From Flavivirga rizhaonensis (GTDB taxonomy: Bacteria; Bacteroidota; Bacteroidia; Flavobacteriales; Flavobacteriaceae), in assembly GCF_004791695.1 (NCBI RefSeq), contig NZ_SRSO01000018.1:1-64000 (forward strand): a stretch of 64,000 nucleotides of DNA, read 5' to 3'. The translations under genes were made by a program, and so were the position numbers. Below the pieces are notes generated by a model. The model did no database searches. It saw only the letters and a list, made by a program, of their open reading frames with translations, and was not told where the DNA came from. Below are positions 11,291 through 59,017 of the stretch, piece after piece. The first letter of the stretch is position 1. The number at the start of each line of letters is the position of its first letter.

Positions 11291-13579
11291 TTAAGTATAT
11301 TCTTCTTCAGGATTACTTGCAAGGGTTGCAGGTTCAACAGAACTATCATGAGCATTATGATATTCTTGTAGGAGATTCATAGTTGCCGTTAATAAATCTT
11401 TTGTTTCTAAAAGAAGACTGAAATATAAAGTTGTATTTTTTGGACTGGATTCTTCGGTTCTGGTGCGTTCTACTTGTATTTGTATTTTTTCAGTAACTAA
11501 ATCAAAAATTTCTTTTTTATTATTTAAAATAGCACCAATTTGTTCGAATGATCGTGAATCAAAAGCTTTTTTAGTTGTGTTAAATAATGACTCAAGATCC
11601 TGGTCAATTTGTTTAAGTTCTTTAATTTGATTGAACTTTAATTTCTTATGATTGTTGTTTACATGTTTATGACTTACTTTAGAAATATATTCTAATGATT
11701 GTGTCATATCTTGTAAATACCCTAATATGTTAATATAGAAGTTACTTGCACCTAAGCTAGATTCGTCTAAATTTTTAATAAAATAAAATATATTGTCACG
11801 TAATTCATCGATTTCATAAGATAGCTTCACGATGTTTTTCTTATTCTTTTTTAGTAAAACTAAATCTTGTTTTGCTAAACCATCTATAGCACTAGAATAA
11901 ATCTTGTTACCACGTTTTACAACATTAGCTATATTGTTTGCGCTTTCATGTATAACACCTTGAATAGAGCTGCTTTCAGCTTGTGTTAGACTATCTTCAT
12001 CAACAACTTTTTTTGAACTCTCTTTATGTGATAAGTAATTTCTAACTAATAGAATAATAGTTAATAATAACAAAATAGGTGTCATTACACTAGGGTTCCA
12101 TTTAATTAAAAAGACCACTGTTCCTGCAGCAATAAAGGCACCAATGGCGGTACCAAACCATCCACCAATAACATTTAGTACACCTGCAACTCTATAAACG
12201 GCACTTTCTCTTCCCCAAGCACGATCTGCAAACGATGTACCCATGGCAACCATAAAGGTTACATAAGTTGTAGATAGAGGCAATTTCATTGATGTTGCAA
12301 TAGCGATTAACACACCTGCTACCATTAGGTTTACAGAAGCTCTAATCATATCAAAAGCAGGCACATTGATGCTTTGGTCTTTTGTTAATACAACATCTGG
12401 TTTTTCAAAACTCTTACCTATTTTTTCTTGAGTAGATACAGGTACAATTTTACTAAATACATCAGATAACCAAGTGGACCCTTTTACAACGCTTCTTGAT
12501 AATATATTTGGCTCGAATTTTTCGTGTGTATCTCCTTGACGAGATAAACTTATTTCAGTTTCTGCTACTGTTTTGGCTTTCTTGGAAAACCATAAGGTTA
12601 ATACCATAATACCACCAGCTATAAATAGTAATAATGGCTCAGCAGGTACTTTCTTGTCAAGTACTTCCATTGAAAACATGGAGGCATCAACACCAGAACC
12701 AATCCATGCTTCATAAGAATGATAGGCGGCCATTGGTACACCAATAAAGTTTACTAAATCATTACCAGAAAAAGCGAGTGCCAAACCAAAAGTTCCAACA
12801 GCAATTACAACAAGTAAGATCGTTTTTTTGAATACCTTTTGGAATCCGAATGAAAATAAAGTCCAAAAAATTAAGCTTCCTAGTATAATAAGCAATTCAT
12901 TGCCTTCAAGAAGGTCTTTAAGATCTTTATAATAAGGCGTCCCTTTTAGTCCTTTTAAAAAGATAAAATAAGTGATAGCAGCTAAAGAAATACCGCCAAA
13001 GATAGCTCCGAAATTTTTTATTTTCTTCTCATAATGGAACGTAAAAACTAAACGAGAAACCCATTGTACGATGGCTCCAACCGTAAAAGCAATGAATACA
13101 GACATTATTATGCCTCGAATAATTTCTAAAGCTTTCTTTGTATTTATATAATCTCCCAGATTAGCAAAAGTTTGAGAATCTGAAGCACTAATTTTTATTA
13201 ATGACATAACCACAGCAGCACCTAATAAGTTAAATACAATAGAAACTGTTGTAGATGTTGGCAACCCTAATGTGTTAAAGAAATCTAACAGTAATATGTC
13301 TGTAATCATTACAGCCATAAAAATATACATGATTTCTTCAAAATTAAACATGGCTGGCACGAAAATTCCTTTACGGGCAACTTCCATCATTCCACTTGAA
13401 AAAACGGCTCCAATAAAAATACCTAAACTTGCAACTATCATAATAGTTCGCATTGAAATGGCTTTAGAGCCAATAGCGGAGTTTAGGAAATTTATAGCAT
13501 CATTACTTACTCCAACTACAATATCAGCAATCGCTAAAACTGTAATGGCAATTAGCATTAATAAATATATATTATCCAT
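11291..13579 (-). CDS. Inorganic phosphate transporter, Pit family, fused to a PhoU-like domain
   Basis: The 762 residues have the two PHO4/Pit halves: an N-terminal half with VGVSNDAINFLNSAIGSKAI (about 22-41) and TLGLPTSTTVSIVF, and a second half around residues 400-500 with KLPLSTTYVTFMVAMGTSFA. Ten or more membrane helices are visible. From about residue 540 a cytoplasmic, charged, helical domain (DUF47/PhoU-like) follows. Pit carriers move metal-phosphate by proton or sodium symport, and the C-terminal domain is expected to regulate transport. It lies downstream of an OprP-like porin, and the gap between them carries a Pho-box-like direct repeat. Confidence 0.9.
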   Translation of the reverse strand: MDNIYLLMLIAITVLAIADIVVGVSNDAINFLNSAIGSKAISMRTIMIVASLGIFIGAVFSSGMMEVARKGIFVPAMFNFEEIMYIFMAVMITDILLLDFFNTLGLPTSTTVSIVFNLLGAAVVMSLIKISASDSQTFANLGDYINTKKALEIIRGIIMSVFIAFTVGAIVQWVSRLVFTFHYEKKIKNFGAIFGGISLAAITYFIFLKGLKGTPYYKDLKDLLEGNELLIILGSLIFWTLFSFGFQKVFKKTILLVVIAVGTFGLALAFSGNDLVNFIGVPMAAYHSYEAWIGSGVDASMFSMEVLDKKVPAEPLLLFIAGGIMVLTLWFSKKAKTVAETEISLSRQGDTHEKFEPNILSRSVVKGSTWLSDVFSKIVPVSTQEKIGKSFEKPDVVLTKDQSINVPAFDMIRASVNLMVAGVLIAIATSMKLPLSTTYVTFMVAMGTSFADRAWGRESAVYRVAGVLNVIGGWFGTAIGAFIAAGTVVFLIKWNPSVMTPILLLLTIILLVRNYLSHKESSKKVVDEDSLTQAESSSIQGVIHESANNIANVVKRGNKIYSSAIDGLAKQDLVLLKKNKKNIVKLSYEIDELRDNIFYFIKNLDESSLGASNFYINILGYLQDMTQSLEYISKVSHKHVNNNHKKLKFNQIKELKQIDQDLESLFNTTKKAFDSRSFEQIGAILNNKKEIFDLVTEKIQIQVERTRTEESSPKNTTLYFSLLLETKDLLTATMNLLQEYHNAHDSSVEPATLASNPEEEYT

Positions 13580-13600: not shown

Positions 13601-13645
13601 CAAATATCTTAAGTGTTACTAAGTAATATGTTACGTAAATGTTAT
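13601..13645 (-). promoter_or_regulatory. Pho-box-like repeat and -7 element upstream of the Pit gene
   Basis: The plus strand shows ATGTTAC (13628-13634) and ATGTTAT (13639-13645), 11 bp apart. The gene-strand -7 candidate GATATTTG (13608-13601) lies 21 nt before the ATG. The repeats fall on the same 11-bp grid relative to the -7 element as in the neighbouring porin and receptor promoters. Confidence 0.5.
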
Positions 13646-13648
13646 GTT

Positions 13649-14860
13649 TTAAAAATGAATGTCAAATTGTAATCTCCACATTAATTCATTGTTTGCACCA
13701 TCAACTTCTAAGTGGCTAATATCGGTTTGTACTTTTAAACTGTGTCCTGCAATATATTTAGATACGCCTAAGGTATATTGACTTTCAGGGTTTTTACCTG
13801 TAATAGCTTTGTCTAACTCTATATTAGTATAACGCCCAGAAACTTCCCAACTATTTTTAAACAAATATCCAGTTTGTAAGTTTAGACCTTTCCCTACTTG
13901 AACAACAACTTGTTTTCCATCTTTTAATAAAGGAGAATCATCAGAGTTTTTTGCAAAAGGATCTTTGGCATCTCTGTCGGCATATTCTGCCATAAATGAA
14001 AAGCCTTTATACTTAAACATAGCATCAATAAATAGGGTGTTAATATTTGTTTCATAAAAACCATCACCATTATCTTTGATCATATAAGATCCTTGATTGC
14101 TCCTGTTTTTAACGGCATTATTATTATGATCATAAGCTACAGCTAATGATAACTTTGGTGTTTGTTCACGAGTTAAATCGCCTCCTTTATAGTCTCCTTT
14201 ACTTATAAAACTTCCAAAAGGGAATAATTCTACACGTCCTGTAAATTGGTGCCCACCTAAATTACCAGTGGTAATATTTCTGCCTTCACCTTGGGCAATA
14301 GAAAATATTTCTTTAATAATAAACTTATCAGACAGCTTAAAATGGTGTCTTAGTTGCATACCCATATCTCTATCTATTGTAAATCTACTATTTAATAAAG
14401 AACGATCTACTTGTTGAAGATTTGCTGAGGAAATAACACGTTCTCTGTTTCCTGGAAGTTTTGTTTGTCCGAACCATAATTCGAAATTTTCGTAAAAGTT
14501 CCACATAACAACGGCATCTAAAATATACCTTGGCGCATTACTAGTAAATTGTGAAGCACCAGATTGGTCTCTATTTGACAAGCCTAATTCAAATTTATAC
14601 TTAAATTTTGGGCTAAAAGCATAACCATCAAATTTTAAACGCGAACGTCTAATTAACATGCTAGATTCATTGCTTTCACCATCTTCCCAAATAGAAGTAG
14701 TTAAAAATTGAGCTCTTAATCCAATTTTCATAGTCCAAGTACTATCCTTTCCTACCAGATTAAATAATCCTTTTCCAAATTTTGGTGCGTTTGATTCTTG
14801 TGCGTTTACAACAGTTAGAGCAAATAAAAAAAATGCTACAAGCGTAGTTTTAAGTTTCAT
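13649..14860 (-). CDS. Phosphate-selective porin O/P family outer-membrane protein
   Basis: The 403-residue protein starts at ATG 14860, where a signal peptide begins (MKLKTTLVAFFLFALTVVNAQ). The longer frame from 14887 has no sense as a start. The body alternates beta-strand segments typical of a 16-18-strand porin, with the family-like GLRAQFLTTSIW and LIRRSRLKFDGYAFSPKFKY early and an aromatic C-terminus (WRLQFDIHF). OprO/OprP-type porins pass phosphate or polyphosphate across the outer membrane. Its position before the Pit gene, and similar promoter repeats, support a phosphate role. Confidence 0.85.
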   Translation of the reverse strand: MKLKTTLVAFFLFALTVVNAQESNAPKFGKGLFNLVGKDSTWTMKIGLRAQFLTTSIWEDGESNESSMLIRRSRLKFDGYAFSPKFKYKFELGLSNRDQSGASQFTSNAPRYILDAVVMWNFYENFELWFGQTKLPGNRERVISSANLQQVDRSLLNSRFTIDRDMGMQLRHHFKLSDKFIIKEIFSIAQGEGRNITTGNLGGHQFTGRVELFPFGSFISKGDYKGGDLTREQTPKLSLAVAYDHNNNAVKNRSNQGSYMIKDNGDGFYETNINTLFIDAMFKYKGFSFMAEYADRDAKDPFAKNSDDSPLLKDGKQVVVQVGKGLNLQTGYLFKNSWEVSGRYTNIELDKAITGKNPESQYTLGVSKYIAGHSLKVQTDISHLEVDGANNELMWRLQFDIHF

Positions 14861-14884
14861 TATAAGTATAAGTTTTTGTCGCTG

Positions 14885-14919
14885 CAAAGAACTAATACTA
14901 ATGTTAACTTAATGTTAAC
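14885..14919 (-). promoter_or_regulatory. Pho-box-like repeat and -7 element of the porin gene
   Basis: The plus strand shows ATGTTAAC at 14901-14908 and again at 14912-14919, exactly 11 bp apart. The gene-strand element GTTCTTTG (14892-14885) is 8 nt from the nearer repeat and 24 nt before the ATG. The TTCTTTG core recurs in the promoters at 17746, 20713 and 21466. Confidence 0.6.
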
Positions 14920-14934
14920 TAAGGATTAAATAAA

Positions 14935-15040
14935 AACTAATAAAAGGCTGCCTTGGCCTAAGGCAGCCTCATTAGAAATCATAATAATGTAGTCGACAAA
15001 AACTAATAGATTATAATGAAATACTAATTTTAGTCTTAAG
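14935..15040 (-). ncRNA. Candidate small RNA ending in a strong terminator
   Basis: A perfect 10-bp stem (AGGCTGCCTT / AAGGCAGCCT, 14945-14969), followed on the minus strand by a U-rich tail, is a good intrinsic terminator, yet no minus-strand gene ends near it. About 80 nt upstream a GAGATTTG (15055-15048) could be a -7 element, with weak ATGTTAT-like heptamers (15075, 15086) behind it on the 11-bp grid. A roughly 100-nt RNA is possible. The ends are estimates. Confidence 0.3.
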
Positions 15041-15162
15041 ACAAATACAAATCTCTTAGTTTAAAGTAACTTGAATGTGATGTAAATATTAAGTAATCAT
15101 TAAGGATTCCAATGTTAAATCTTAAAATCTATTTATTTATTAATCAGTGCGTTAATGTTTTA

Positions 15163-15218
15163 ATGTTAACTTAATGTTATGTAAAGGTTGATTTAGTGTT
15201 ATCTTATTTGTATATTTG
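15163..15218 (+). promoter_or_regulatory. Promoter of the YwqK-like gene with phased Pho-like repeats
   Basis: Heptamers ATGTTAA (15163), ATGTTAT (15174), a weak AGGTTGA (15185) and GTGTTAT (15196) lie on an exact 11-bp grid. Eight nt later is a canonical Bacteroidota -7 box, TATATTTG (15211-15218), 25 nt before the ATG. The spacing equals that of the other putative Pho promoters, but the heptamer orientation relative to transcription is reversed. Confidence 0.55.
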
Positions 15219-15243
15219 GTATATAATGTTAAAACCCATAATT

Positions 15244-15597
15244 ATGAAGAACTCAATTTTATTTTATTTTGCCTTTTTAATTACTGTGGTATCTTTTGGT
15301 CAACAAAAGAGAGATTTAAAACATAACAAAGACACGAACTTAATTGAAGTTGTTTATTATCATGACAATGGTGCTGTAAGCCAAACAGGGACTTACACAG
15401 CAGATGGTAAACTACATGGTGAGTGGTTGAGTTTTAACACAGAAGGCAAAAAAGTAGTTTCTGCAAATTATGATAATGGTAAAAAAGTCGGCAAGTGGTT
15501 TTATTGGAATAATGAAACTGTAAAAGAAGTAGATTATAGTGCTAATGTTATAGCTGGTTTAAAGGAATCTGACACCAAAGGGAATCAAGGTATTTAA
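15244..15597 (+). CDS. Secreted YwqK/MORN-like small protein
   Basis: The ORF can be opened from a GTG at 15196, but the signal peptide begins at ATG 15244 (MKNSILFYFAFLITVVSFGQ), giving 117 residues. The promoter -7 box at 15211 also lies after the GTG and rules it out. The mature part has MORN-like repeats: EVVYYHDNGAVSQTGTY, GKLHGEWLSFNTEGK, GKKVGKWFYWNNE. Proteins of this type are often annotated YwqK antitoxin-like, but no toxin is next to it. It is probably periplasmic or surface-exposed. The promoter architecture ties it to the phosphate genes around it. Confidence 0.75.
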   Translation: MKNSILFYFAFLITVVSFGQQKRDLKHNKDTNLIEVVYYHDNGAVSQTGTYTADGKLHGEWLSFNTEGKKVVSANYDNGKKVGKWFYWNNETVKEVDYSANVIAGLKESDTKGNQGI

Positions 15598-15616
15598 ACT
15601 AAAAAAATAGTTAATA

Positions 15617-15651
15617 AAAAAAGCATCCTAAGAAATTTAGGATGCTTTTTT
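15617..15651. terminator. Bidirectional terminator between convergent genes
   Basis: AAAAGCATCCTAA pairs with TTAGGATGCTTTT around a 4-nt loop, with A/T-runs on both sides. It lies between the YwqK-like gene and the lipoprotein gene. Confidence 0.85.
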
Positions 15652-15672
15652 GTGAATTAAATATGTTATTTT

Positions 15673-17721
15673 TTATAAACCAGCATTTCTCCAAGTCCAT
15701 CCTGAAATATCTAATGCAGTAGCATCTTTTCCAGAATTAAGTGTGTATTTGCTAGTTTCACCAGATAGTACTGTTACATCAGCACCAGCACCTTCAATTA
15801 TTACATTAGCTGTAGAGCCTCCATCTTTCATATCTAAGTCAACATCATATCCAGTAAGATGTAAACCAGTAATGGTGCCACCAGATTGTTTTTTAAATTG
15901 TAACGCAGTTCCACCTCCACTAGAAATAGCTGTAATATTAGTAAAAGTAGGGTTTCCATTTGCTTTATCTCCTTCAAAAACGGTGGAGAAATCATCATTA
16001 GTATTAGAAATATAAGCATTGGTTACAGAACCACTCCATCCCTCAGTCCAATCAATAGCATCGTCAAGAGCATCTTTTATATATAAGTTAGTTGCAGATA
16101 CTGTTCCGCCGAAAAACTCAACACCATCATCTTCACCATTTATAACAGATATATTTTCTATGGTTGTCATTGAACCAACAGCATATAAAGAAAGACCATT
16201 ATATTGAGACTCAGAGTTAATTTGAGCTCCAGTTCCTTTAAGAACTAAATATCTTACTGAACCAGAATTGTCATTATCAGTAGTTCCTCCATAAACAAAA
16301 CCACCTACTTCGGCAACAGCATCAACACCAGCGGTAGTCGTAGCATTACCACAGATTGTTAAACCTCCCCAGTCTCCTCCGTTACCACTAGCAGAAGCAA
16401 TTACAACAGGATTACCTGCTTCACCTTGAATATCTATTTCACCACCTTTTAAAACAGCGATGTATACGCCTGTACCACCATCTCTAGCAGTAATTTTTGT
16501 TCCAGCTGGAATGGTTAATTTACCACCACTTTGAACAATATAAGAAGAGTTTAATGTATAGTTTACCGAAGCATCTAAAGTAACATTACCAATAACAGCC
16601 CCTTGTAAAACACTGCTTTCAAATGATAAATTTGTGTCTACCCAATCAAAATCTGCAGCATCAACAGTAGGAACTACAGTAGTATTTAATGCGAAAGTGT
16701 AAATACTTTCGTCTACATCTGCTGTGTCTGGGTCATCTTCAACCATTGCTACAGGAGAATAACCATCAGAGAAGATTACATTGGCTGTATCTCCACCATC
16801 TTTCATGTCTAAGTCTATATCATACCCACTTAAAGATAACCCAGAAATAGTACCACCAGATTGTTTTTTGAATTGTAAAGCAGTACCTCCAACGGTAGAA
16901 ACTGCCGTTATATTTGTAAAAGTAGGGTTTCCATTGTCTTTATCTCCTTCAAAAACAGTAGAGAAATTAGCAACAGTATTAGAAATATAAGCATTAGTAA
17001 CAGATCCATTCCAACCTTCAGTCCAGTCTATAGAATCATCATCATTATTTTCTAAGTATAAGTTAGAAGCGGAAACAGTTCCACCAAAAAACTCAACCCC
17101 ATCATCAGATCCATTTATTACCGCTACGTGGTCTACTAACGTACCAGAACCAACAGCATAAAAAGAAACACCATTATATTGAGATTCTGTATTGATTTGG
17201 GCTCCAGTACCAACAATTTGTAAGTATCTTATAATCCCCGAACTGTCTGTGTCTTCATTACCGCCGTAAATAAAACCGCCAACTTCAGCTTGAGCATCTA
17301 CTCCTGCAGATGTGGTAGCTTTTCCGCATAGAGTTAATCCACCCCAATCACCAGGCTTTCCATCTACAGAAGACATTACAACTGGACTTCCTGCATTACC
17401 GTTAATATTAATTTGAGCACCTTTTAAAACAGCGATATAAACGTCTGTACCTCCATTGTCAGCAAGAATTTTCGTGCCAGCAGGAATATTTAATGTAGCG
17501 CCATCTGCAACAATAAACTGCCCTGTTAAATTATAAACAGTCGAAGCGTTAAGTGTATAGTTTTCTTCTAAGGTACCTTTCATGGTACCAGCGTTTAAGT
17601 TTTCAATAACTTCTGTTTCCGAAGGTACTATGGGAGCTGGATCATCAGAGCTACAGCTGGTTAAATTAATAGTAGCATAAGCTAATATTATGGTTAATAA
17701 TTTTAAAGATAATTTTTTCAT
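15673..17721 (-). CDS. Surface lipoprotein with two tandem beta-helix domains
   Basis: The start at ATG 17721 gives a lipoprotein signal (MKKLSLKLLTIILAYATI...LTSCSSDD) and 682 residues. Two homologous halves (about residues 40-360 and 365-682) share GGxxVYIAVLKG, GDWGGLTxCGxATT, SQYNGxSxYAVGS, DDGVEFFGGTVSA and WTEGW.GSVTNAYISNT in the same order. They look like right-handed beta-helix folds. SSDD after the lipobox Cys is compatible with surface export. It is downstream of the TonB receptor gene (same strand, separated by a terminator and its own promoter) and may be its surface partner. Substrate unknown. Confidence 0.75.
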   Translation of the reverse strand: MKKLSLKLLTIILAYATINLTSCSSDDPAPIVPSETEVIENLNAGTMKGTLEENYTLNASTVYNLTGQFIVADGATLNIPAGTKILADNGGTDVYIAVLKGAQININGNAGSPVVMSSVDGKPGDWGGLTLCGKATTSAGVDAQAEVGGFIYGGNEDTDSSGIIRYLQIVGTGAQINTESQYNGVSFYAVGSGTLVDHVAVINGSDDGVEFFGGTVSASNLYLENNDDDSIDWTEGWNGSVTNAYISNTVANFSTVFEGDKDNGNPTFTNITAVSTVGGTALQFKKQSGGTISGLSLSGYDIDLDMKDGGDTANVIFSDGYSPVAMVEDDPDTADVDESIYTFALNTTVVPTVDAADFDWVDTNLSFESSVLQGAVIGNVTLDASVNYTLNSSYIVQSGGKLTIPAGTKITARDGGTGVYIAVLKGGEIDIQGEAGNPVVIASASGNGGDWGGLTICGNATTTAGVDAVAEVGGFVYGGTTDNDNSGSVRYLVLKGTGAQINSESQYNGLSLYAVGSMTTIENISVINGEDDGVEFFGGTVSATNLYIKDALDDAIDWTEGWSGSVTNAYISNTNDDFSTVFEGDKANGNPTFTNITAISSGGGTALQFKKQSGGTITGLHLTGYDVDLDMKDGGSTANVIIEGAGADVTVLSGETSKYTLNSGKDATALDISGWTWRNAGL

Positions 17722-17745
17722 TTTTTTATTAGTTTTATTGTTATG

Positions 17746-17843
17746 CAAAGAAAATTGATTAGTGTCTCTTGTTGTTTAATAGAATATTAAACGTAGGTTA
17801 CGTTTTTTTGTTAAAACACATCCTTTTGTTATTAAAATGTTAA
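17746..17843 (-). promoter_or_regulatory. Promoter region of the beta-helix lipoprotein with distal Pho-like repeat
   Basis: The gene-strand element TTTCTTTG (17753-17746) lies 24 nt before the ATG. Plus-strand TTGTTAT (17826-17832) and ATGTTAA (17837-17843) are 11 bp apart. They lie further upstream than in the neighbours and about 2 bp off the grid, so this is the weakest member of the set. Confidence 0.4.
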
Positions 17844-17886
17844 GTGAATATATATCGGAATTTGAGGTTGCACAAATGTGCTAATA

Positions 17887-17923
17887 AAAGAAAATCCCGA
17901 GGATCTCCTCGGGATTTTCTTTT
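17887..17923 (-). terminator. Terminator after the TonB receptor
   Basis: A near-perfect 17-bp hairpin (AAAGAAAATCCCGAGGA / TCCTCGGGATTTTCTTT) with a very short loop lies 18 nt beyond the receptor stop. A/T-runs on both sides make it bidirectional. Confidence 0.9.
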
Positions 17924-17941
17924 ATTGTGTTTTGCTTATTC

Positions 17942-20689
17942 TTAAAAAGAATATTTTAAACTTAAACTTAACAAACTTCCCTTTTTATATGAACTAACAA
18001 TTTTATCGGTTTCAATATTTGTATTAATATCTCTAACTAATTGTGTTTGTTCTATATCAGGGTTAATAAGGTTTCTTCCAATAAATTTTACTAATAATTT
18101 ATCAGTTATTTTTTTACTAACGACTAAGTCTAATGTAAAAAATCCTTTTTCTATAATTTCATCATTATAAAGTGTAGCACTATTAGCAAAATCTTCGGGA
18201 GACCCTAATGCAAATATTTTATCTGAAGAATAGTTACCAGTTACAGTTGCAATAAATTCTTTTTCTTTTTGACTGTTGTAACTAAATGCTCCATTCAAAA
18301 TTAAATCTGAAGCTCCTTGTAAATCAGATTCAGTGACATTATTATATTGAAACTCTTCTAATAAATCCTGATTAAACCACATTTTTGTTATGTTGGTGTT
18401 AAAATTAAGGATAGGTTCTGCTTCTTCATTTTCGATTAAGTTTAATCGTGACTCTAACTCGATACCAAATACATTTGCTTTTTCGCCCGTATTTGAGAAT
18501 TCAAAAATCCCGGCTGAACCTCTAGTTAAAGCAAGGTTAATAGGATTTTTAATTTGTTTATAAAATGCCGTAGCAGAAATTAGCTCTCCTTGTTTTGGAA
18601 AAAATTCCCATTTTAAATCAGCATTAAAAACATCAGATTTTTCCAAATCAGGGTCACCTCTCGTAACACGACCTGTTGGTGAAACATATTCAAAAGGAGA
18701 TAATTCTTTAAACTCTGGTAAAGTTTGAGTTAAACTTGAAGCAAAACGTAGAAAGTGTTTTTCATTTAACTCATATTTTAAATTAACACTTGGGTATATG
18801 TCATTATATTCCTTTGCAATTGATCCAATACGTCCAACAAAGTTTGCTACATCCCATAAGACATTTATTTCATCTTTCTCATATCTTACACCTACGTTTC
18901 CAGATAACTTTTTGAACTCAAAATCTAAATTTGCAAAACCAGATATGATAGTTAAATCTGCATCATACCTATCTGCATCTCTTTCTCTTAAAATTAACCC
19001 GTTATTAAAGTTAGCTTCTGTGAAAGTAAGTGAAAATTCATCCACAGACGGAACTTGAAAATCTCTTGCTCTAACACCAATGAATAATGAACTAAATACC
19101 CTTTCTTTTTTACGGATATTAGCTCCTACATGAAGTTTGAAGGGCTTCTTGTCATCTTCATTTAATTGTCCAAAACTTATTTCATCTTTTAAATAAGCAT
19201 TGTATTCTATGTCCTCAATTTTCTGGTTAGATTTTCTTTGTTGAAAATCACCAACGTGTGCATATTGAGTTAAACCAGATGTGTTTATATCTAAAATATT
19301 AGCCTCATTTCTTATCCTGTTAGGTTCTTCTGCCAATACAAAATTATAACCACCTGCCCATTTAAGTCTGTTATTCTCACCTATATTATGATTACCAATT
19401 ATTTGGTTAACAAGTAATCTGGTTTGCTTGAAATTTTGATCTCTTACAAAAGCACCATCTTCTTGAGGATCTTGGTCAAAGACATAACCCAAGCCATTTC
19501 TACCTTGCTCGTAAACATTATCGGTACTCCTGTTAACAGATAAACTACTTATTTTTATTCTGTTATCACTATTAATTTTTAATCCCAGGTTTATATATCC
19601 AGTAGAGTTAGTATTAGTTGTAAAAGACTCAACATCGGTAAATTCATTGTCTAAAATGTTTGACCTATAGCTTCTGAAAATACCTTCCTGGTATCCAAAA
19701 GATTTTGAATGAGAACCAGAAGCAAAGATTGATAGCTCTTTTCCAAAAACTTCAAACTTATACCCTCCGGTTAAAGATATATTGTAGTTTCCTGTATTAT
19801 TTTGTTTTAATGGATCCCAACCTTGTCTTGTAATTAAATCGACTGTAGCAAACTGTTTTTTATGAAAACCAAGTGTAACGTCTTCAGAGGCTACACTTCT
19901 TTTAAAATCACCATCTACACCCAGAACATTAGTATTGTACCCAGAGCCAATACTAATAGAAAATTGCTTTTTGGAATATTCTTTAGAAGAAATATCCACA
20001 TTTCCGGAAGATTGATCAGCATAACTTGAAGTAGCATAGGTTTTACTAATACCTACGTTCTCAATCATGTTCGTTGAGAATAAATTTAAATTAATATTTT
20101 TATTATCAACGTCATCAGAAGGTATAGGTAATCCATTCATTGTAGTAGACAAATATCTGTCTCCTAGTCCTCTTATGTATATTTCTCCGGTTCCTTCACT
20201 TCTAGTAACTCCAGATATTTTAGTTGTTGCTGTAGCTGCATTGGAAACACCAATTTTACCTAATCTTTCAGCTCCAATACTTTCTTTTATTATAGCAGCC
20301 TTCTTTTGTTCCAACAAAAGAGCAGTCTCACTCTCTCTTTTGGTTGTCGTTTTAATGACAATTTCATCCAAAGAAGCTGCACTAGCTCCCATTGGTACAT
20401 TTACTTCAGTTACTTTGCCTGCAACTATTTGTATAGGTATTTCTTGAGTTTCATACCCAACAAAACTGAACATTAATGTGTATGCTCCAGGATCTAGGTT
20501 TTCCAATTTATAATAACCATCAAAATCTGAAGTAGTTCCTTTAGTAGTACCTTTTATTATCACGTTAGCAAAGGCTAAAGGCTCATTGTTATACTCTTTG
20601 TCTGTTAGTTTTCCAACAACAGAACCCGTACTTTGAGCATGAGAAAATGTAGCAGTAAATACTGCGAATAGTATTAAAATTCTTTTCAT
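17942..20689 (-). CDS. TonB-dependent receptor, probably phosphate-regulated
   Basis: The 915-residue protein has a signal peptide (MKRILILFAVFTATFSHAQS), a carboxypeptidase-like regulatory domain (GKLTDKEYNNEPLAFANVII, about 27-105), a plug with IYIRGLGDRYLSTTMNGLP (about 170-190), and a long barrel ending in GSLLSLSLKYSF. A distinctive plug stretch ALLLEQKKAAIIKESIG precedes the plug. Import substrate is unknown. It is flanked by the beta-helix lipoprotein and by an orphan copy of its own N-terminal domain, and shares promoter architecture with the porin and Pit genes. A phosphate-ester or phosphate-polymer role is an inference. Confidence 0.85.
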   Translation of the reverse strand: MKRILILFAVFTATFSHAQSTGSVVGKLTDKEYNNEPLAFANVIIKGTTKGTTSDFDGYYKLENLDPGAYTLMFSFVGYETQEIPIQIVAGKVTEVNVPMGASAASLDEIVIKTTTKRESETALLLEQKKAAIIKESIGAERLGKIGVSNAATATTKISGVTRSEGTGEIYIRGLGDRYLSTTMNGLPIPSDDVDNKNINLNLFSTNMIENVGISKTYATSSYADQSSGNVDISSKEYSKKQFSISIGSGYNTNVLGVDGDFKRSVASEDVTLGFHKKQFATVDLITRQGWDPLKQNNTGNYNISLTGGYKFEVFGKELSIFASGSHSKSFGYQEGIFRSYRSNILDNEFTDVESFTTNTNSTGYINLGLKINSDNRIKISSLSVNRSTDNVYEQGRNGLGYVFDQDPQEDGAFVRDQNFKQTRLLVNQIIGNHNIGENNRLKWAGGYNFVLAEEPNRIRNEANILDINTSGLTQYAHVGDFQQRKSNQKIEDIEYNAYLKDEISFGQLNEDDKKPFKLHVGANIRKKERVFSSLFIGVRARDFQVPSVDEFSLTFTEANFNNGLILRERDADRYDADLTIISGFANLDFEFKKLSGNVGVRYEKDEINVLWDVANFVGRIGSIAKEYNDIYPSVNLKYELNEKHFLRFASSLTQTLPEFKELSPFEYVSPTGRVTRGDPDLEKSDVFNADLKWEFFPKQGELISATAFYKQIKNPINLALTRGSAGIFEFSNTGEKANVFGIELESRLNLIENEEAEPILNFNTNITKMWFNQDLLEEFQYNNVTESDLQGASDLILNGAFSYNSQKEKEFIATVTGNYSSDKIFALGSPEDFANSATLYNDEIIEKGFFTLDLVVSKKITDKLLVKFIGRNLINPDIEQTQLVRDINTNIETDKIVSSYKKGSLLSLSLKYSF

Positions 20690-20712
20690 TATTTCTATTA
20701 ATTTCTAAGCTG

Positions 20713-20791
20713 CAAAGAACGGTAGACTATGTAAAGAATATGTTACCTTTAGATTAAACAACAGTAACCAAAGAGTTATCTAAATGTTATC
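20713..20791 (-). promoter_or_regulatory. Promoter of the TonB receptor with four phased Pho-like repeats
   Basis: Plus-strand heptamers ATGTAAA (20729), ATGTTAC (20740), GAGTTAT (20773) and ATGTTAT (20784) fall on one 11-bp grid, as two pairs separated by 33 bp. The gene-strand GTTCTTTG (20720-20713) is 8 nt from the first and 23 nt before the ATG. The same layout occurs upstream of the gene at 21059. Confidence 0.6.
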
Positions 20792-21058
20792 TAAAACGGC
20801 ACTGTATTTTGGTTTGTAAACAATAAATTAACATTGAAAAGACCTTAAAAAGAATAGATTTTTTAAGTTTATAAAAACAGCTATTAGTGTTTAGTAGAAA
20901 ATTAACGAAGTATTAGATGTTCTTGTCTCTCTTTTTACATTAGATTTTAAAATATGGACGACAAATAGTTTATGCTCTAAAAAGAAAGGGAAAGGAATGA
21001 TGATAGTGAATTAGCGTAATAACCAACTTTGAATGAGCTCGTTTTTACGTCTTCAGTT
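20792..21058. other. Gap between the receptor and its orphan domain gene
   Basis: This stretch is AT-rich. I see no open frame that continues a receptor plug or barrel, no clear hairpin terminator and no RNA gene. Nothing further can be supported. Confidence 0.5.
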
Positions 21059-21445
21059 TTAATTTAATCGAGAAGCTGTTTTGTTATTTTTCTCGCTAAC
21101 GTTGGTGATGGATGCAAGTTCAAGTAAAGAAATAGTACTTGCTCCTAAAGAAGTTTTAATATAATCAGATTCTCCAGAAATAACTTTTACTTTTAATTCT
21201 TTAGTTTCATAACCAGTGAAGCTACATACTAAAGTGTAATCACCATCCTTTAAATTTTCGATAACAAATAAACCAGTTTCATCTGTAGTCGATTTAATAG
21301 AAGTTCCTTTAATAGAGACATCAGCAAAAACTAAAGGATTGTTATCAAACTCTTTATCCGTTAATTTGCCAGCTATTAACCCAGTGTTTTGTGAAAAACA
21401 AAAAGAGGTGAAAATTAGTATAAAAAAAGTTATTAGCTGTTTCAT
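21059..21445 (-). CDS. Orphan carboxypeptidase-like regulatory domain protein, paralogue of the receptor N-terminus
   Basis: This is a 128-residue secreted protein (signal MKQLITFFILIFTSFCFSQN). It matches the N-terminal domain of the receptor at 17942 nearly end to end: GKLTDKEFDNNPLVFADVSI versus GKLTDKEYNNEPLAFANVII, then FTGYETKELKVKVISGE and a GASxxSL motif. It stops where the receptor's plug would start, so it has no barrel. The upstream region also copies the receptor's -7 and repeat arrangement. It may be a duplication remnant that is still expressed, or a free domain interacting with the receptor or TonB system. Confidence 0.75.
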   Translation of the reverse strand: MKQLITFFILIFTSFCFSQNTGLIAGKLTDKEFDNNPLVFADVSIKGTSIKSTTDETGLFVIENLKDGDYTLVCSFTGYETKELKVKVISGESDYIKTSLGASTISLLELASITNVSEKNNKTASRLN

Positions 21446-21465
21446 TAGTATAAAAAATAATGCAG

Positions 21466-21544
21466 CAAAGAACTGATTTTATAATCATTGGTATGTTATC
21501 TAATTATTAAAGAACGATGATTAAAATGTTATCTTAATGTTATC
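21466..21544 (-). promoter_or_regulatory. Promoter of the orphan domain gene with phased Pho-like repeats
   Basis: Plus-strand ATGTTAT occurs three times, at 21493, 21526 and 21537. They are spaced 33 and 11 bp, with a weak TAATCAT at 21482. The gene-strand GTTCTTTG (21473-21466) lies 20 nt before the ATG. The layout matches that at 20713-20791 position for position. Confidence 0.6.
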
Positions 21545-51890: not shown

Positions 51891-54800
51891 ATGTCAAAAA
51901 TTTTAGGTTTAGATCTGGGTACTAATAGTATTGGTTGGGCATTAATTGACGATGTACAAAATAAAATACTTGGTATTGGCAGCAGAGTTTTTCCAATGGG
52001 GGTAGATAATCTGGGAGATGGCGATAATGAAATGTCTAAAAATGCCAGTAGAACAGGAGCCAGAGGAGTAAGAAGGCAATTTTTTAGAAGACGCTTAAGG
52101 AAGAAAAAGCTACTAAAAGCACTTTCTAAACACCATATGTGTCCGTTAAAGGACAGTGATTTTGAAATATGGAAAAAAACAAAACAATTTCCTTCTGCTA
52201 AATTGGCTATATGGTTTGCACAGAATCCTTACGAATTAAGACACAAGGCATTGCATGAAAAATTATCTTTAGAAGAAATAGGAAGGGTTTTTTATCATTT
52301 AATTCAGCGTAGGGGGTTTTTAAGCAATAGTAGAAAAGGCGGAACAGATGATGGTGCTATTTTTAAAGGAAATACCAAAGAAGGAAAAATAGGTATTACA
52401 GAAACTACAGAAAGTATTAAAGAAAAAACGTTGGGCTCGTATTTGTTTGAAATACATCCTAAGGAGCATCAACCTTTTCAATGTGGTACAGAGCGTATAA
52501 GAAATAGATATACTACACGAAAAATGTATGTAGACGAGTTTGAGTCAATCTGGAAGCAACAGTCACAATTTCATACTGTTTTAAATGATGAATTAAAAAC
52601 ACTTTTTGGGGGCAGGAAATTAGAGGGGTATAAAGAAGACGGTATTTTATTTCATCAGCGCCCCTTACGCTCTCAAAAACACTTAGTAGGTAATTGTTCT
52701 TTTGAACCCACAAAAACTAAATGCCCTATAAGTGCCATTGTTTTTGAGCAATTTAGAGTTTGGCAATGGGTAAATACAGTGGAATGTAACGGTGCTAAAA
52801 TAAGTCAGGAAGACAAGGGTAAAATTGTGGACTTTCTGTATTCCATTGAAAAACCGGTTTTTAAAAGAATCCGAAAAGTTATTGGTAAAGAAAGTGCAGA
52901 ATTTAAATTTAACTATAAAGATGACGATAAAATAGTAGGAACACATACCATTTCTAATCTATCTCATAATAAATACTTTGGTAAAAAGTGGTTCGATTTC
53001 ACCCAAAAAGAACAGGATGATATTTGGCACGTATTATATTTTTTTGATAGTAAATCCAACTTAAAGCAATATGCCATTAAAAATTGGAACTTTACCGAAG
53101 CTCAAGCTGAAACCATTTCTAAGTTCAATGTAAAAGATGGTTATGCAAATTTAAGTAGAAAAGCCATTTCTAATATTTTACCCTTTTTACAACAAAGTTA
53201 TACTTACGATGTGGCTGTTGTAATGGGAGGGGTAAAAAATGTTTTTGGCGATACATGGCAGAATGATTCTTTAGAAAACAATAAAAAACAATTAGAATTA
53301 ATCGATAATGTAGAAGACATAGTTCGTACTAAAATTAAGGGCGGTTTTATTGATACGATTAAAGAATTACTTCGTAAAGATTTTGGGTTTAATAATAGGC
53401 AGTTAAAAAAATTATATCACCATTCTGCTTCAATCAATAATGACACTTTACTAGAAAAGTTACCAGTAGGAAAAGAAGCTGACAAAGAAATTCAATCCAT
53501 AAGAAACCCCATTGTAATAACCGCATTATTTGAATTGCGAAAGCTGGTTAATGAGTTAATTGAGGACTATGGTGAGATTGAGGATATAAAAGTGGAAATG
53601 GCACGCGATTTAAAATCATCTAAATCACAGCGAAATAAAGTACGTAGAAATCAAAAACGATTAGAGCGCGAAAATGATAGAATAAAAACCGAAGTAGAAA
53701 AATATGTGCGTATTTCACACGATAGTATTTTAAAATTCAAACTATGGGAAGAATGTAAAAAAACATGTCCTTACACAGGAAGAGCGATATCTGTAACAGA
53801 TTTGTTTTCGGGAGAAGTTCAGATAGAACATATTCACCCGTGGAGCAGGTCGTTAAATGATAGCTTTGGAAATAAAACTTTATGTTGGGCAGACGAGAAT
53901 AGAAAAAAAGGAAATAAAACCCCTTTTGAGTTTTATGGAAATGATGAAGTTCATTGGGCAACTGTAAAGGAGCGCGCTTTAAAATTGTTTTCAGATACTA
54001 AAGAGTATCCCAACGCTTATCAAAAATTTAAAAGGTTTGTTCAGCAAAATTTTGATGACGATTTTACCTCACGACAGTTAAATGATACCAGATATATAAG
54101 CAAAGAAGCCAAAGGTTATCTTTCTAAAATATGCGGCAAGGTGACCGTTTCTCCAGGGCAGATAACTTCAAATTTACGTCATAAATGGGGGCTAAATCAT
54201 ATTTTAAACAATGAAAACTCAAAGTCTCGTGAAGACCATCGTCATCATGCTGTAGATGCACTCGTAATGGCATGTACAAAAGTTTCTTATGTACAAGAAT
54301 TGTCTAAATGGAATGGGTACAACAGAAAATCAGAATCAAAAGTTTTTCCTATGCCTTGGAAAACTTTTAGGTATGATGCGGAACAAGCTATTGATACTAT
54401 TCTGGTATCTCATAAGTGTATTAAAAATGATATCACTGTTAGAACACATATAACAGATAAAAACGGAAAGAAACACAAAAATAAAGGCATTGCAGCCAGA
54501 GGACAGTTACACAAGGAAACTGTTTTTGGTAAACGAAAAGCACCGTTTAGCGAAGAAGCATTTCATGTTAGAAAATCAATAGACAGTTTAACAACTTCAA
54601 AACACCTCGATAAAGTAGTAGACGAAACTATCAAGACCTTAATATTAAAGCGAATTCAACAACTAGGAGGTTTTGATAAAGGAAAGATTCCAGCTAATAC
54701 TTTTTTTATTGTCGACGAACATGGTGTAAAACAGCCGCAAATATTTTTACCAAATAAAAATGGCGACCCAGTACCTGTTTTAAAAGTAAGGATGAAAGAA

Positions 54801-55283
54801 AACTTTAGTGGAGCAGAACAACTGAAGGATGATGTAAACCAATGGGTAAACCCCAGAAACAATCATCATGTATTAATTTACAAAGATGAAAAAGGCGAAC
54901 TAAAAGAAGATGTCGTTACTTTTTGGACAGTAGTTGAAAGGAAAAGACAAGGCGCTTCAATTTATCAATTGCCTTCTGGAGGGGAAGAAATAGTAACGAC
55001 ATTACATATCAATGATATGTTTTTATTAGGACTCGATGAAGATGAAATTAATTGGGATACTCCAGACTATAAGGTATTAAGAGAGCATTTATATAGGGTG
55101 CAGAAATTATCATCGAAATTTTATGAGTTTAGATTAAATAGTGAAGCCTCAATACAAAATAATAATAATCCATACTATGTTAGGATACAAAGTTATGGAG
55201 AAGGAAAAACAGGTTGGTTAACTTTTAATCCTATAAAAGTAAAGGTTTTGGTTTCTGGAAAAATAAAGAGATTTAATTACTAA
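51891..55283 (+). CDS. cas9: CRISPR-associated endonuclease Cas9, compact type II-C
   Basis: The 1130-residue RNA-guided nuclease has RuvC-I at LGLDLGTNSIGWALI (Asp8) and an Arg-rich bridge helix GARGVRRQFFRRRLRKKK (56-73). RuvC-II is IKVEMARDLKSS (Glu569). The HNH site is VQIEHIHPWSRSLNDSFGNK (His647) with a downstream NRKKGNKTPFE. RuvC-III is HRHHAVDALVMACT (His786, Asp789). The catalytic residues are all present. Size and the HPWSR..DSFGNK..NKKGN layout resemble Neisseria-type II-C Cas9 more than the roughly 1400-1500-residue Cas9 of many flavobacteria. AGGGAG precedes the ATG. The PAM cannot be read from sequence. Confidence 0.97.
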   Translation: MSKILGLDLGTNSIGWALIDDVQNKILGIGSRVFPMGVDNLGDGDNEMSKNASRTGARGVRRQFFRRRLRKKKLLKALSKHHMCPLKDSDFEIWKKTKQFPSAKLAIWFAQNPYELRHKALHEKLSLEEIGRVFYHLIQRRGFLSNSRKGGTDDGAIFKGNTKEGKIGITETTESIKEKTLGSYLFEIHPKEHQPFQCGTERIRNRYTTRKMYVDEFESIWKQQSQFHTVLNDELKTLFGGRKLEGYKEDGILFHQRPLRSQKHLVGNCSFEPTKTKCPISAIVFEQFRVWQWVNTVECNGAKISQEDKGKIVDFLYSIEKPVFKRIRKVIGKESAEFKFNYKDDDKIVGTHTISNLSHNKYFGKKWFDFTQKEQDDIWHVLYFFDSKSNLKQYAIKNWNFTEAQAETISKFNVKDGYANLSRKAISNILPFLQQSYTYDVAVVMGGVKNVFGDTWQNDSLENNKKQLELIDNVEDIVRTKIKGGFIDTIKELLRKDFGFNNRQLKKLYHHSASINNDTLLEKLPVGKEADKEIQSIRNPIVITALFELRKLVNELIEDYGEIEDIKVEMARDLKSSKSQRNKVRRNQKRLERENDRIKTEVEKYVRISHDSILKFKLWEECKKTCPYTGRAISVTDLFSGEVQIEHIHPWSRSLNDSFGNKTLCWADENRKKGNKTPFEFYGNDEVHWATVKERALKLFSDTKEYPNAYQKFKRFVQQNFDDDFTSRQLNDTRYISKEAKGYLSKICGKVTVSPGQITSNLRHKWGLNHILNNENSKSREDHRHHAVDALVMACTKVSYVQELSKWNGYNRKSESKVFPMPWKTFRYDAEQAIDTILVSHKCIKNDITVRTHITDKNGKKHKNKGIAARGQLHKETVFGKRKAPFSEEAFHVRKSIDSLTTSKHLDKVVDETIKTLILKRIQQLGGFDKGKIPANTFFIVDEHGVKQPQIFLPNKNGDPVPVLKVRMKENFSGAEQLKDDVNQWVNPRNNHHVLIYKDEKGELKEDVVTFWTVVERKRQGASIYQLPSGGEEIVTTLHINDMFLLGLDEDEINWDTPDYKVLREHLYRVQKLSSKFYEFRLNSEASIQNNNNPYYVRIQSYGEGKTGWLTFNPIKVKVLVSGKIKRFNY

Positions 55284-55297
55284 ATTTATAATATTAA

Positions 55298-56652
55298 GTT
55301 CATTGACATTAAGGGTTAGAAAACACGATATTAGAATATCATCCAATACTGGATGTTCAAAGGTTGTAGTTTGATTAAGGATTAGAAAACACGATATTCG
55401 AAGTGTCGGACAAATATTTCCTTTCACAGTTGTAGTTTGATTAAGGATTAGAAAACACGATATTACAAACCATACCGCAATTAACCCTTCATCGGTTGTA
55501 GTTTGATTAAGGATTAGAAAACACGATATTACACTAAACACCATCTTTTATCAACGTATAGTTGTAGTTTGATTAAGGATTAGAAAACACGATATTAGAC
55601 CCTACAGAAAGAACAACGTTAACGTCGTTGTAGTTTGATTAAGGATTAGAAAACACGATATTTAATCGGAATCATGTCCGTAATGCCAAAAAGTTGTAGT
55701 TTGATTAAGGATTAGAAAACACGATATTGCACAGTCTAAAAACCGTAAACCCGGTAGTGTTGTAGTTTGATTAAGGATTAGAAAACACGATATTCATGTA
55801 CTGTATCATCTAGATACTTGTACTGTTGTAGTTTGATTAAGGATTAGAAAACACGATATTTGCAATATCGCTACGATACGCTATGTTACTGTTGTAGTTT
55901 GATTAAGGATTAGAAAACACGATATTTCCACCTTGTGTATAAGGGATAGCCGAACCGTTGTAGTTTGATTAAGGATTAGAAAACACGATATTTATGAATT
56001 GCACGCTTAATTTTATTACGCAGTTGTAGTTTGATTAAGGATTAGAAAACACGATATTTTGCAGCCGCTACAGGAATTAAGATAACTAGTTGTAGTTTGA
56101 TTAAGGATTAGAAAACACGATATTATCGATCTGTCCATCTTGATCCTTGTCCAAGTTGTAGTTTGATTAAGGATTAGAAAACACGATATTTGTCTCCTGT
56201 GTATCGTTATTTGATGTCTGGTTGTAGTTTGATTAAGGATTAGAAAACACGATATTCGAGCCTGTTTGCTTTTTCCTGTTTCCTAAGTTGTAGTTTGATT
56301 AAGGATTAGAAAACACGATATTTCATTAAGATTCCGAAAAACAGGTAAAAACGTTGTAGTTTGATTAAGGATTAGAAAACACGATATTATCTCATCTAAC
56401 GAACTCGGATTAAAATCCGTTGTAGTTTGATTAAGGATTAGAAAACACGATATTTTTAGCAGTACAATACCATTGCTCGCTAGTGTTGTAGTTTGATTAA
56501 GGATTAGAAAACACGATATTCCTTTTGCAGGTTACCAGCTTATTTACAATGTTGTAGTTTGATTAAGGATTAGAAAACACGATATTCTTTACGTGTTGCT
56601 GTAACTTCAACCACTCGTTGTAGTTTGATTAAGGATTAGAAAACACGATATT
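55298..56652 (+). CRISPR. Type II-C CRISPR array, 21 repeats and 20 spacers
   Basis: Twenty identical 36-bp repeats (starting GTTGTAGTTTGATTAAGG and ending AAACACGATATT) lie at a strict 66-bp period from 55363 to 56652, so every spacer is 30 nt. One degenerate 35-bp repeat (55298-55332, 5' half altered, GACATTAAGGGTTAG core) caps the cas9 end. tracrRNA complementarity sets the crRNA strand as plus. The degenerate repeat marks the oldest, leader-distal end at cas9, so new spacers probably enter beside cas2. Confidence 0.97.
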
Positions 56653-56757
56653 AGTTGACTTGTTGTCTTCTGATAATCATTAAATTAAGTGTGAATATCG
56701 TTTTAAAAAATGCTTCTTTTTTGCAGTGATAAGGCAAGATTGAAGCATTTTTTTATT
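56653..56757. promoter_or_regulatory. Putative leader/acquisition end and array terminator
   Basis: The 105 bp between the last repeat and the cas2 stop begin with AGTTGACTTGTTGTCTTCTG and contain a hairpin AATGCTTC / GAAGCATT with A/T-runs on both sides (56705-56757). The hairpin can terminate both the array transcript and cas1-cas2. As the intact-repeat end, this region is the likely Cas1-Cas2 integration site. Confidence 0.5.
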
Positions 56758-57087
56758 TTAAAAGAGTTCTAATTGGGTTGGAGGAGGTTCTTTAGGGACT
56801 TCTGAGCGTCCCCAAAAGTTCATGATATTACCAAATTGTTTGTCTGTAATTCGTAATACACTTACTTTACCTAAAGGCGGGAGTAGTCTTTTAATACGTT
56901 TTTCATGTACATCGGCACTTTCACTGCTCGCACAATGCCTTATGTATACAGAATATTGCATCATGGTAAAGCCATCTTTTAAAATGTTTTTCCTAAAACC
57001 AGAAGCATTTTTTCTGTCTTTAGCAGTTTCAGTAGGTAAATCAAAAAATACAAATAACCACATAATTCTATAGCCATTTAGTTCCAT
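56758..57087 (-). CDS. cas2: CRISPR-associated endoribonuclease Cas2
   Basis: The 109-residue ferredoxin-fold protein contains MWLFVFFDLPTETAKDRK (about 9-26, with the conserved Asp at the end of strand 1), FRKNILKDGFTMMQYSVYIR and a C-terminal QFGNIMNFWG. It forms the Cas1-Cas2 integrase complex. It overlaps cas1 by 10 nt and is convergent with the array. Confidence 0.95.
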   Translation of the reverse strand: MELNGYRIMWLFVFFDLPTETAKDRKNASGFRKNILKDGFTMMQYSVYIRHCASSESADVHEKRIKRLLPPLGKVSVLRITDKQFGNIMNFWGRSEVPKEPPPTQLELF

Positions 57088-58538: not shown

Positions 58539-58655
58539 GACGTATTGTTCATTCAGAGTGCGGCGAAGAATCTCACCTATAATAATTTAGTGAAGCTTTT
58601 AAATGTAAAATAAGCTTAGTACGAGCAAGATCCTCAATATCGTTTTTATTTAAGA
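58539..58655. other. Dispersed-repeat arms before the tandem repeat
   Basis: It contains TTCATTCAGAGTGCGGCGAAGAATCT and similar pieces related to the MITE-like arms at 11.2 and 29.2 kb, but no gene. Confidence 0.4.
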
Positions 58656-59017
58656 GATTGCCGCAGTCGTACCTCCTTCGCAATGACATATCATTTAACT
58701 ATAAACAAGTCTTTGTTCTTGATTCTAAAAGCAAAGCGGTCTATGTTCTTTGGAGATGATAACAGATTGCCACAGTCGTACCTCCTTCGCAATGACATAT
58801 CATTTAACTATAAACAAGTCTTTGTTCTTGATTCTAAAAGCAAAGCGGTCTATGTTCTTTGGAGATGATAACAGATTGCCGCAGTCGTACCTCCTTCGCA
58901 ATGACATATCATTTAACTATAAACAAGTCTTTATTCTTGATTCTAAAAGCAAAGCGGTCTATGTGCTTTGGAGATGATAACAGATTGCCACAGTCGTGCC
59001 TCCTTCGCAATGACATT
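58656..59017. repeat. Tandem repeat, 109-bp unit, 3.3 copies
   Basis: Units beginning GATTGCC[AG]CAGTCGTACCT start at 58656, 58765, 58874 and 58983, exactly 109 bp apart. Copies differ at very few positions. The unit contains a dispersed-repeat arm (CAGTCGTACCTCCTTCGCAATGACA) and the element ends in the stop of the next gene. Since 109 is not a multiple of three, the 60-75-codon frames over it are not conserved coding. Confidence 0.85.

Follow-up and report, generated by a model that had tools for sequence, protein, structure and literature searches.

A predicted small RNA complementary to the leader of a neighbouring porin gene in a likely Pho-type island of Flavivirga rizhaonensis

What is controlled by the phased heptamers that precede a Pit-type phosphate transporter gene and its neighbours in Flavivirga rizhaonensis, and what occupies the gap between the porin gene and the ywqK gene of the same island? 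The DNA analysed is a 64-kb stretch of contig NZ_SRSO01000018.1 (the window), from a genome of 4.9 Mb. A preliminary description had interpreted the heptamers as the mark of a Pho regulon island; it was incomplete, since it made no mention of a conserved, predicted small RNA gene that precedes the porin, and had missed that the ywqK box is reversed and that the lipoprotein pair of heptamers lies off the 11-base grid. Our preferred reading, to which we assign a probability of about 0.72, is that a PhoB-type regulator controls the island and that an antisense RNA would be co-activated with the porin and would repress it; both the sign of this effect and the binding of PhoB we infer from sequence.

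A predicted small RNA gene between porin and ywqK

The gap between the two genes contains the following elements, given here with the porin gene and the complementary site in its leader.

14938..15044, minus strand: predicted small RNA, its 5' end placed from the TTTG element and its 3' end from the terminator
14944..14970, minus strand: intrinsic terminator of the small RNA, its stem pairs showing compensatory changes in 113 unique sequences
14994..15008, minus strand: anti-leader segment (RNA 5'-UAUUAGUUUUUGUCG), the part of the small RNA that matches the porin leader by complementarity
15011..15021, minus strand: anti-start segment (RNA 5'-UUUCAUUAUAA), the part of the small RNA complementary to the start codon region of the porin
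15048..15103, minus strand: small RNA promoter, with TTAATGA at -52, TTAATAT at -41, ATCACAT at -30 and GTTACTT at -19; TTTG at 15051-15048
14867..14881, minus strand: target site in the porin leader, CGACAAAAACTTATA
13649..14860, minus strand: OprO/OprP-type porin, the predicted RNA target (Pfam Porin_O_P, 3.5e-9)

The small RNA is predicted to be an independent transcript with its own promoter and terminator. Among 11 sequences from the same genus, 88% of the alignment columns are invariant in the RNA body and 70% in its promoter, versus 33% in the adjacent spacer, and the segment 14930-15062 folds better than its shuffles (z -3.96). The upstream region holds four degenerate units on the same 11-base grid as the boxes of the island. 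When a matrix of the porin promoter (83 of 86 sequences) was compared with one of the small RNA promoter (75 of 95, the 20 without a TTTG in the searched stretch being dropped), the highest similarities fell at shifts of -11, -22 and 0 (1.08, 0.86 and 0.77), followed by -5 (0.53), +6 (0.48) and +11 (0.46).

Two other interpretations of this segment were tried and rejected. The box at 15163 was ruled out as the promoter of the RNA, because two loci (L020 and L033) keep the RNA and its own promoter without that box. A small protein encoded here was also considered: an ATG follows the exact core in 72 of 92 sequences, but indels put relatives out of frame with one another, and the protein was rejected by inspection only. 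No Rfam family passed its gathering score in the window, the weak matches at 14600-15400 having E values of 0.88 or worse, and no description of this RNA or of a flavobacterial Pho box was found in a literature search that covered titles and abstract openings and had most subscription papers outside its reach.

A covariance model, R1, was built from 23 porin-adjacent sequences and searched genome-wide. It found matches in 104 of 249 genomes of the family (97 of 235 genera), with filters strict enough that weak matches are lost; the RNA is single-copy in all but two genomes. In an order-wide sample of 196 genomes the RNA was present in 7, all from the same family. An exact 28-base pattern from the RNA (one N) retrieved 87 stretches in named genomes, including Algibacter, Olleya, Lacinutrix, Tamlana, Gaetbulibacter, Mariniflexile and Flavivirga. 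One alignment, A2, was discarded because 16 of its 116 rows were reverse-strand matches of the complementary leader/terminator region.

A porin lies downstream in 86 of 95 fetched matches, with a median of 82 nt (range 62-203) from the end of the model to the ATG; four of the 86 match the porin profile weakly, two being a more divergent porin (L065 and L066), one a remnant (L095) and one cut by the contig end (L102). Across the 249 genomes, a porin orthologue of at least 400 bits and the RNA occur together in 96, the porin alone in 30, the RNA alone in 8 and neither in 115. Two genomes (G104 and G143) carry a more divergent porin in which the leader site is kept, two (G080 and G184) have a different open reading frame after the RNA that looks porin-like by eye, and in G121 (L097) the RNA match ends at the contig end. 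G174 has two RNA copies (L095 and L096), one next to an intact porin and the other next to the porin remnant. A weak match in G207, adjoining a PhoB-like gene, was taken as false.

Predicted pairing with the porin leader

Complementarity was assessed for 83 of the 86 porin-followed RNAs, three having been dropped for short flanks. The longest complementary run between the RNA core and the porin leader comprises 9-21 consecutive pairs, with at least 14 in 57 genomes and at least 12 in 75. Eight core columns pair without exception when G-U is allowed, and columns just outside them pair at about chance level; since the layout was made by a core search on both sides, this pairing in the 83 genomes is partly by construction. 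The 9-nt core is exact in 82 of the 83 RNAs and 68 of the 83 leaders, and in G076 a natural double change preserves pairing.

The complementarity is conserved and partner-specific. Summed over 86 true pairs, the duplex energy is -2408.7 versus -2160.8 (standard deviation 26.8) with permuted partners, and 0 of 5000 permutations were as low; for a set of 84 genomes the corresponding values are -2037.8 and -1805.5 (standard deviation 21.4). For 67 of 86 leaders the true RNA gives a better fit than the average of the other RNAs. A count of same-branch co-changes on the porin tree (11 versus 2.7 expected) is the weaker form of this evidence.

An independent check came from genomes lying outside the model. 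Porins of at least 400 bits were present in 126 genomes, 96 with and 30 without a model match, and the leaders of all 30 were examined. The leader site survives in seven, with 8 or 9 of its 9 bases, and in six of these an exact core lies within 440 nt upstream, followed by an apparent terminator hairpin and set in flanks unlike the consensus. In these six core-selected genomes, all under the model threshold, each RNA fits its own leader best (6/6); among the 720 possible assignments only the true one is as low, and the core-to-site distance is 113-203 nt. The other 23 genomes have neither leader site nor exact core, with L321 and L337 having a core of 8 of 9 bases.

From the boxes, their grid, their conservation, the complementarity and the partner-specific fit, all of which the sequence shows, we derive the following circuit. 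At low phosphate a PhoB-type regulator (OmpR/PhoB family) would bind tandem TTAACAT-type units on an 11-bp grid and would activate Pit, the porin, the receptor, the lipoprotein and the short domain gene. The same regulator would also activate transcription of an RNA about 105 nt long, whose gene immediately precedes the porin on its strand and closes with a terminator of its own. The 5' leader of the porin mRNA would be the partner of this RNA; the duplex would usually comprise 12-16 consecutive pairs within the last ~35 nt before the AUG, would often take in the AUG too, and would block ribosome loading. Porin and repressor RNA would thus form an incoherent feed-forward loop, the purpose of which may be to cap porin synthesis.

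In most genomes the two arms are near neighbours on one strand (median 82 nt, and 113-203 nt in the six genomes above), and this also fits a quite different arrangement, in which no free RNA exists: transcription past the terminator would let the arms fold into a long hairpin hiding the porin start, and translatable mRNA would come only from the porin's own promoter. We regard this as improbable. A conserved terminator stands between the arms, and the segment has its own conserved promoter-like region. Furthermore, in G111 a distance of 3.1 kb, taken up by a short open reading frame and two long genes on the opposite strand, separates the RNA from the porin, and the arms still pair (-23.3 kcal/mol; 3 of 1000 shuffled leaders as low). 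Three genomes (G154, G140 and G025) keep the RNA with Pit following and no porin between.

The direction of the effect could also be the reverse of the one we favour. If pairing at the 5' end protected the mRNA or kept the leader open, the RNA would activate the porin in a coherent feed-forward loop, and both the similarity of the boxes on the two promoters and the fact that pairing spans the very start of a short leader are compatible with this. The AUG is covered by the predicted duplex in 62 of 84 genomes, so a block of initiation is favoured and activation appears unlikely; since permuted partners give a similar coverage (mean 61.1), the anti-start block is not partner-specific.

It is very improbable that the complementarity is a by-product with no RNA function, left by an inverted duplication whose arms template switching keeps similar. 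One genome, G155 (L312, contig C107), invites the idea: it has two RNA copies, the degenerate one beside the porin, and the 33-nt inverted repeat that joins this copy to the leader and promoter element of the porin looks like a product of template switching, which could therefore help to keep the arms alike. Against a by-product stand the RNA body, better conserved than any other part of the intergenic region, the 9-nt core, exact in nearly all RNAs and in most leaders, and the pairing of the arms over 3.1 kb in G111.

Several observations nevertheless weigh against repression of the porin by this RNA. Model R1 was trained on a porin-linked set, and the core-based layout and the possible template switching in G155 have been mentioned. 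The true RNA ranks first for only 4 of 86 leaders (median rank 16), because most cores are alike. On the porin tree, unpaired control columns also co-change above expectation (30 versus 16.3, and 8 versus 3.9). The seventh porin-only genome with a leader site, L327, shows no exact core in the 440 nt read upstream. Finally, the RNA is conserved beyond its paired part and is kept beside Pit in the three genomes without an intervening porin, so the porin may not be its sole target.

Phased units and the phosphate context of the island

The remaining promoters and genes of the island, with the porin promoter, are as follows (positions of units are relative to TTTG).

14885..14918, minus strand: porin promoter, two TTAACAT units at -30 and -19; TTTG at 14888-14885
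13601..13645, minus strand: Pit promoter, ATAACAT at -41 and GTAACAT at -30; TTTG at 13604-13601
15163..15218, plus strand: ywqK promoter, ATGTTAA at -52, ATGTTAT at -41, AGGTTGA at -30 and GTGTTAT at -19, element TATATTTG; units reversed
17746..17801, minus strand: lipoprotein promoter, weak GTAACCT at -52, TTAATAT at -41 and TTAAACA at -30; TTTG at 17749-17746; the previously described pair, 17826-17843, lies upstream
20713..20790, minus strand: receptor promoter, ATAACAT at -74, ATAACTC at -63, GTAACAT at -30 and TTTACAT at -19; TTTG at 20716-20713
21466..21543, minus strand: short domain gene promoter, ATAACAT at -74, -63 and -30, TTAATAA at -41; TTTG at 21469-21466
11291..13579, minus strand: Pit-type phosphate transporter (Pfam PHO4, 3.3e-30)
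15244..15597, plus strand: YwqK/MORN-like secreted protein (MORN_2, 7.5e-5, under its cut-off)
15673..17721, minus strand: lipoprotein, beta-helix-like according to the preliminary description, with no Pfam match; possible counterpart of F. johnsoniae FII
17942..20689, minus strand: TonB-dependent receptor with a carboxypeptidase-like N-terminal domain (PF13715, PF14905, PF07715)
21059..21445, minus strand: stand-alone CarbopepD_reg_2 domain protein, the short (orphan) domain gene (PF13715, 1.7e-17); close relatives (77-95%) in 7 of 14 relative regions

All 16 heptamers that had been reported are present where they were placed. The proposed consensus ATGTTAN fits 12 of them, the departures being GTGTTAT at 15196, TTGTTAT at 17826, ATGTAAA at 20729 and GAGTTAT at 20773. 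Their 11-bp phasing, also part of that description, is beyond chance: TGTTA-N6-TGTTA occurs 6 times in the window versus a mean of 0.47 in dinucleotide shuffles, and 0 of 100 shuffles reach 6. Five of these matches lie in the promoters in question and one (18386) inside the receptor gene. Among TGTTA spacings from 4 to 60, 11 is the most frequent (6), with a runner-up of 3. The excess is smaller for ATGTTA-N5-ATGTTA with at most one mismatch (6 in the window versus 1.50 in shuffles, 1 of 100 shuffles getting to 6). In the whole genome the exact pair TAACAT-N5-TAACAT has 9 copies, four of them in the 8-kb island, and the backwards-read control pattern has 1.

Of the five exact pairs elsewhere, one precedes the gene of a CAP-domain lipoprotein (L006); at L001 and L008 no Pfam domain was matched by the proteins examined. 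Another pair, at 1501-1598 of L009, lies upstream of a calcineurin-like phosphoesterase gene, possibly PlcP, and is two bases off the grid of the island. In F. johnsoniae a PlcP gene is phosphate-induced.

For the five minus-strand genes the unit reads TTAACAT on the sense strand, ATGTTAN being its complement. Using a unit matrix built from 83 porin promoters and counting units above 55% of the maximum score, we found unit starts at -30/-41 from TTTG for Pit, -19/-30 for the porin, -30/-74 for the receptor, -30/-63/-74 for the orphan gene and, reversed, -41/-52 for ywqK, all on a common 11-base grid; matches off the grid occur at -46 and -15 for Pit and at -60 for ywqK. The fixed register to the promoter element that had been proposed is thereby borne out for these five promoters, with two qualifications. 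On the sense strand of ywqK the box of this gene reads ATGTTAN, so that it faces the opposite way, and the lipoprotein pair 17826/17837, at -83/-94 from TTTG, is two bases off the grid; that promoter has a weaker on-grid series at -52/-41/-30, nearer to the gene. The earlier figure of 8 nt between unit and TTCTTTG needs correction, as we count 9 from the -19 unit of the porin.

The boxes are conserved as judged by inspection. Both porin units are present in 20 of 25 loci (L010-L034), and in 14 relative regions the Pit pair is plain in 11. Wherever a close homologue is present in these regions its boxes are kept (receptor 4/4, lipoprotein 4/4, orphan 7/7), homologues of about 30-50% identity, probably paralogues, being excluded from the counts.

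On balance the island is best read as a Pho-type regulon, and control by PhoB is likely: the geometry and conservation of the boxes, the gene content and the presence of a PhoB/PhoR-like pair all point that way. This pair, a PhoB-like regulator and a PhoR-like kinase, is encoded on another contig next to a glycosyltransferase gene. Between phoB and a divergent small secreted-protein gene, at 2172-2376 of L040, the sequence TAACATTTACGTAACAGACAAGTTACAG forms an 11-bp phased series that may be another Pho box. In F. johnsoniae, Table 1 of PMC8115612 lists a PhoBR cluster in which glycosyltransferase, OprP, PhoR, PhoB, receptor and lipoprotein stand together, and gives fold changes on phosphate depletion of 8.02 for the receptor and 9.91 for the lipoprotein FII. 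The cluster receptor has the same three Pfam domains as the island receptor, and the cluster lipoprotein carries IPR011050. The island receptor and lipoprotein are likely counterparts of these regulated genes, a match drawn from domains.

The case for PhoB itself is tempered by three results. The best PhoB candidate scores 217 bits to TIGR02154 (cut-off 296.2) and 208.2 to NF053854 (cut-off 270); OprP of F. johnsoniae is unresponsive to phosphate depletion (-1.3, not significant; PMC8115612 Table 1); and a genome-wide search with the strict two-unit-plus-TTTG pattern shows no enrichment (8 matches versus 16 for the control), its six matches besides porin and receptor having no ATG-started open reading frame of at least 60 aa within 128 nt. 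Together with the presence of at least five full-length OmpR-type regulators in the genome, the first two results leave some room for another member of this family to bind the 11-bp repeats, the island then answering a different signal. We hold this to be doubtful, given the phosphate transport gene content and the phosphate regulation of the likely receptor and lipoprotein counterparts in F. johnsoniae.

Elsewhere in the window, a CRISPR locus with a Cas9-like protein (RuvC_III, HNH_4) and Cas1 occupies 51891-57962; its repeat array, 55290-56653, has about 20 units with a period of 66 nt. Beside it, at 58651-59016, a tandem repeat of 109-nt period has three copies that are 97-98% alike.

Further targets and relation to known systems

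Some genomes keep the RNA without an adjacent porin, and for this reason it may act on further targets in trans. That the RNA is a new family, present in roughly four of every ten genera sampled, that it forms with the porin a two-gene phosphate-controlled module in which a single response regulator turns on both the pore and the antisense RNA limiting it, in a genome with no Hfq match, and that the RNA also reaches such targets, is a proposal we consider evenly balanced. The search of the F. rizhaonensis genome with CGACAAAAACTWAT gave 171 sites with at most two mismatches versus 403 for the control. Eleven sites have 0-1 mismatch: the porin leader, the RNA gene and 9 more, none of which, on inspection, is just before a gene start; the 160 two-mismatch sites lie outside this inspection. 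G025 has a perfect site at C1:2851216, yet no gene start follows closely in sense. Further targets are suggested by the conservation of the RNA beyond its paired part and by its retention where no porin adjoins.

Bacteroidota make up a large share of marine and soil microbial life, and to our knowledge there are few small RNAs in this phylum whose conserved target is clear. For the flavobacterial RNA there are a target and a predicted activator, the pairing can be tested, and natural variants exist. The RNA has a bearing on how phosphate may enter through the outer membrane in bacteria that have Pit and, as in F. rizhaonensis, no PstS-type protein matching over the cut-off (one weak match lies below it). 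Also, the family-level box model, with TTAACAT units at -19/-30 from TTTG, is usable for mapping flavobacterial phosphate regulons.

The gene for MicF lies beside ompC, and the RNA acts on ompF with Hfq. Like MicF and other enterobacterial porin-repressing RNAs, the RNA described here is short, is predicted to act on a porin leader and start codon under OmpR/PhoB-family control, and is encoded beside a porin; unlike MicF, it shares the strand of its own target and directly precedes it, in a genome with no Hfq match. The likeness drawn here is one of arrangement. It also resembles the type I antitoxin RNA IstR-1 of the tisB system, which is encoded beside its target and has a short complementarity to the leader, but here the target is a porin rather than a toxin and both genes have activator-type boxes.

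Among conserved flavobacterial small RNAs, Rfp18 of Flavobacterium psychrophilum (PMC9723704) differs in its predicted targets, metalloproteases and an adhesin; its deletion lowers two protease mRNAs, the word porin is absent from the text, and the two RNAs are set apart here by description. The F. johnsoniae PHO regulon (PMC8115612) likewise clusters a receptor with the same Pfam domains, a lipoprotein and an OprP-type porin; there the cluster stands beside phoBR, and here it stands beside Pit, with phoBR on another contig. The term Pho box is absent from the main text of PMC8115612.

The boxes themselves differ from the E. coli Pho box in their unit, TTAACAT instead of CTGTCAT, and in a TTTG element of the Bacteroidota type. 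They share with it the tandem 7-bp units, the 4-bp spacers and the fixed distance upstream of the core promoter.

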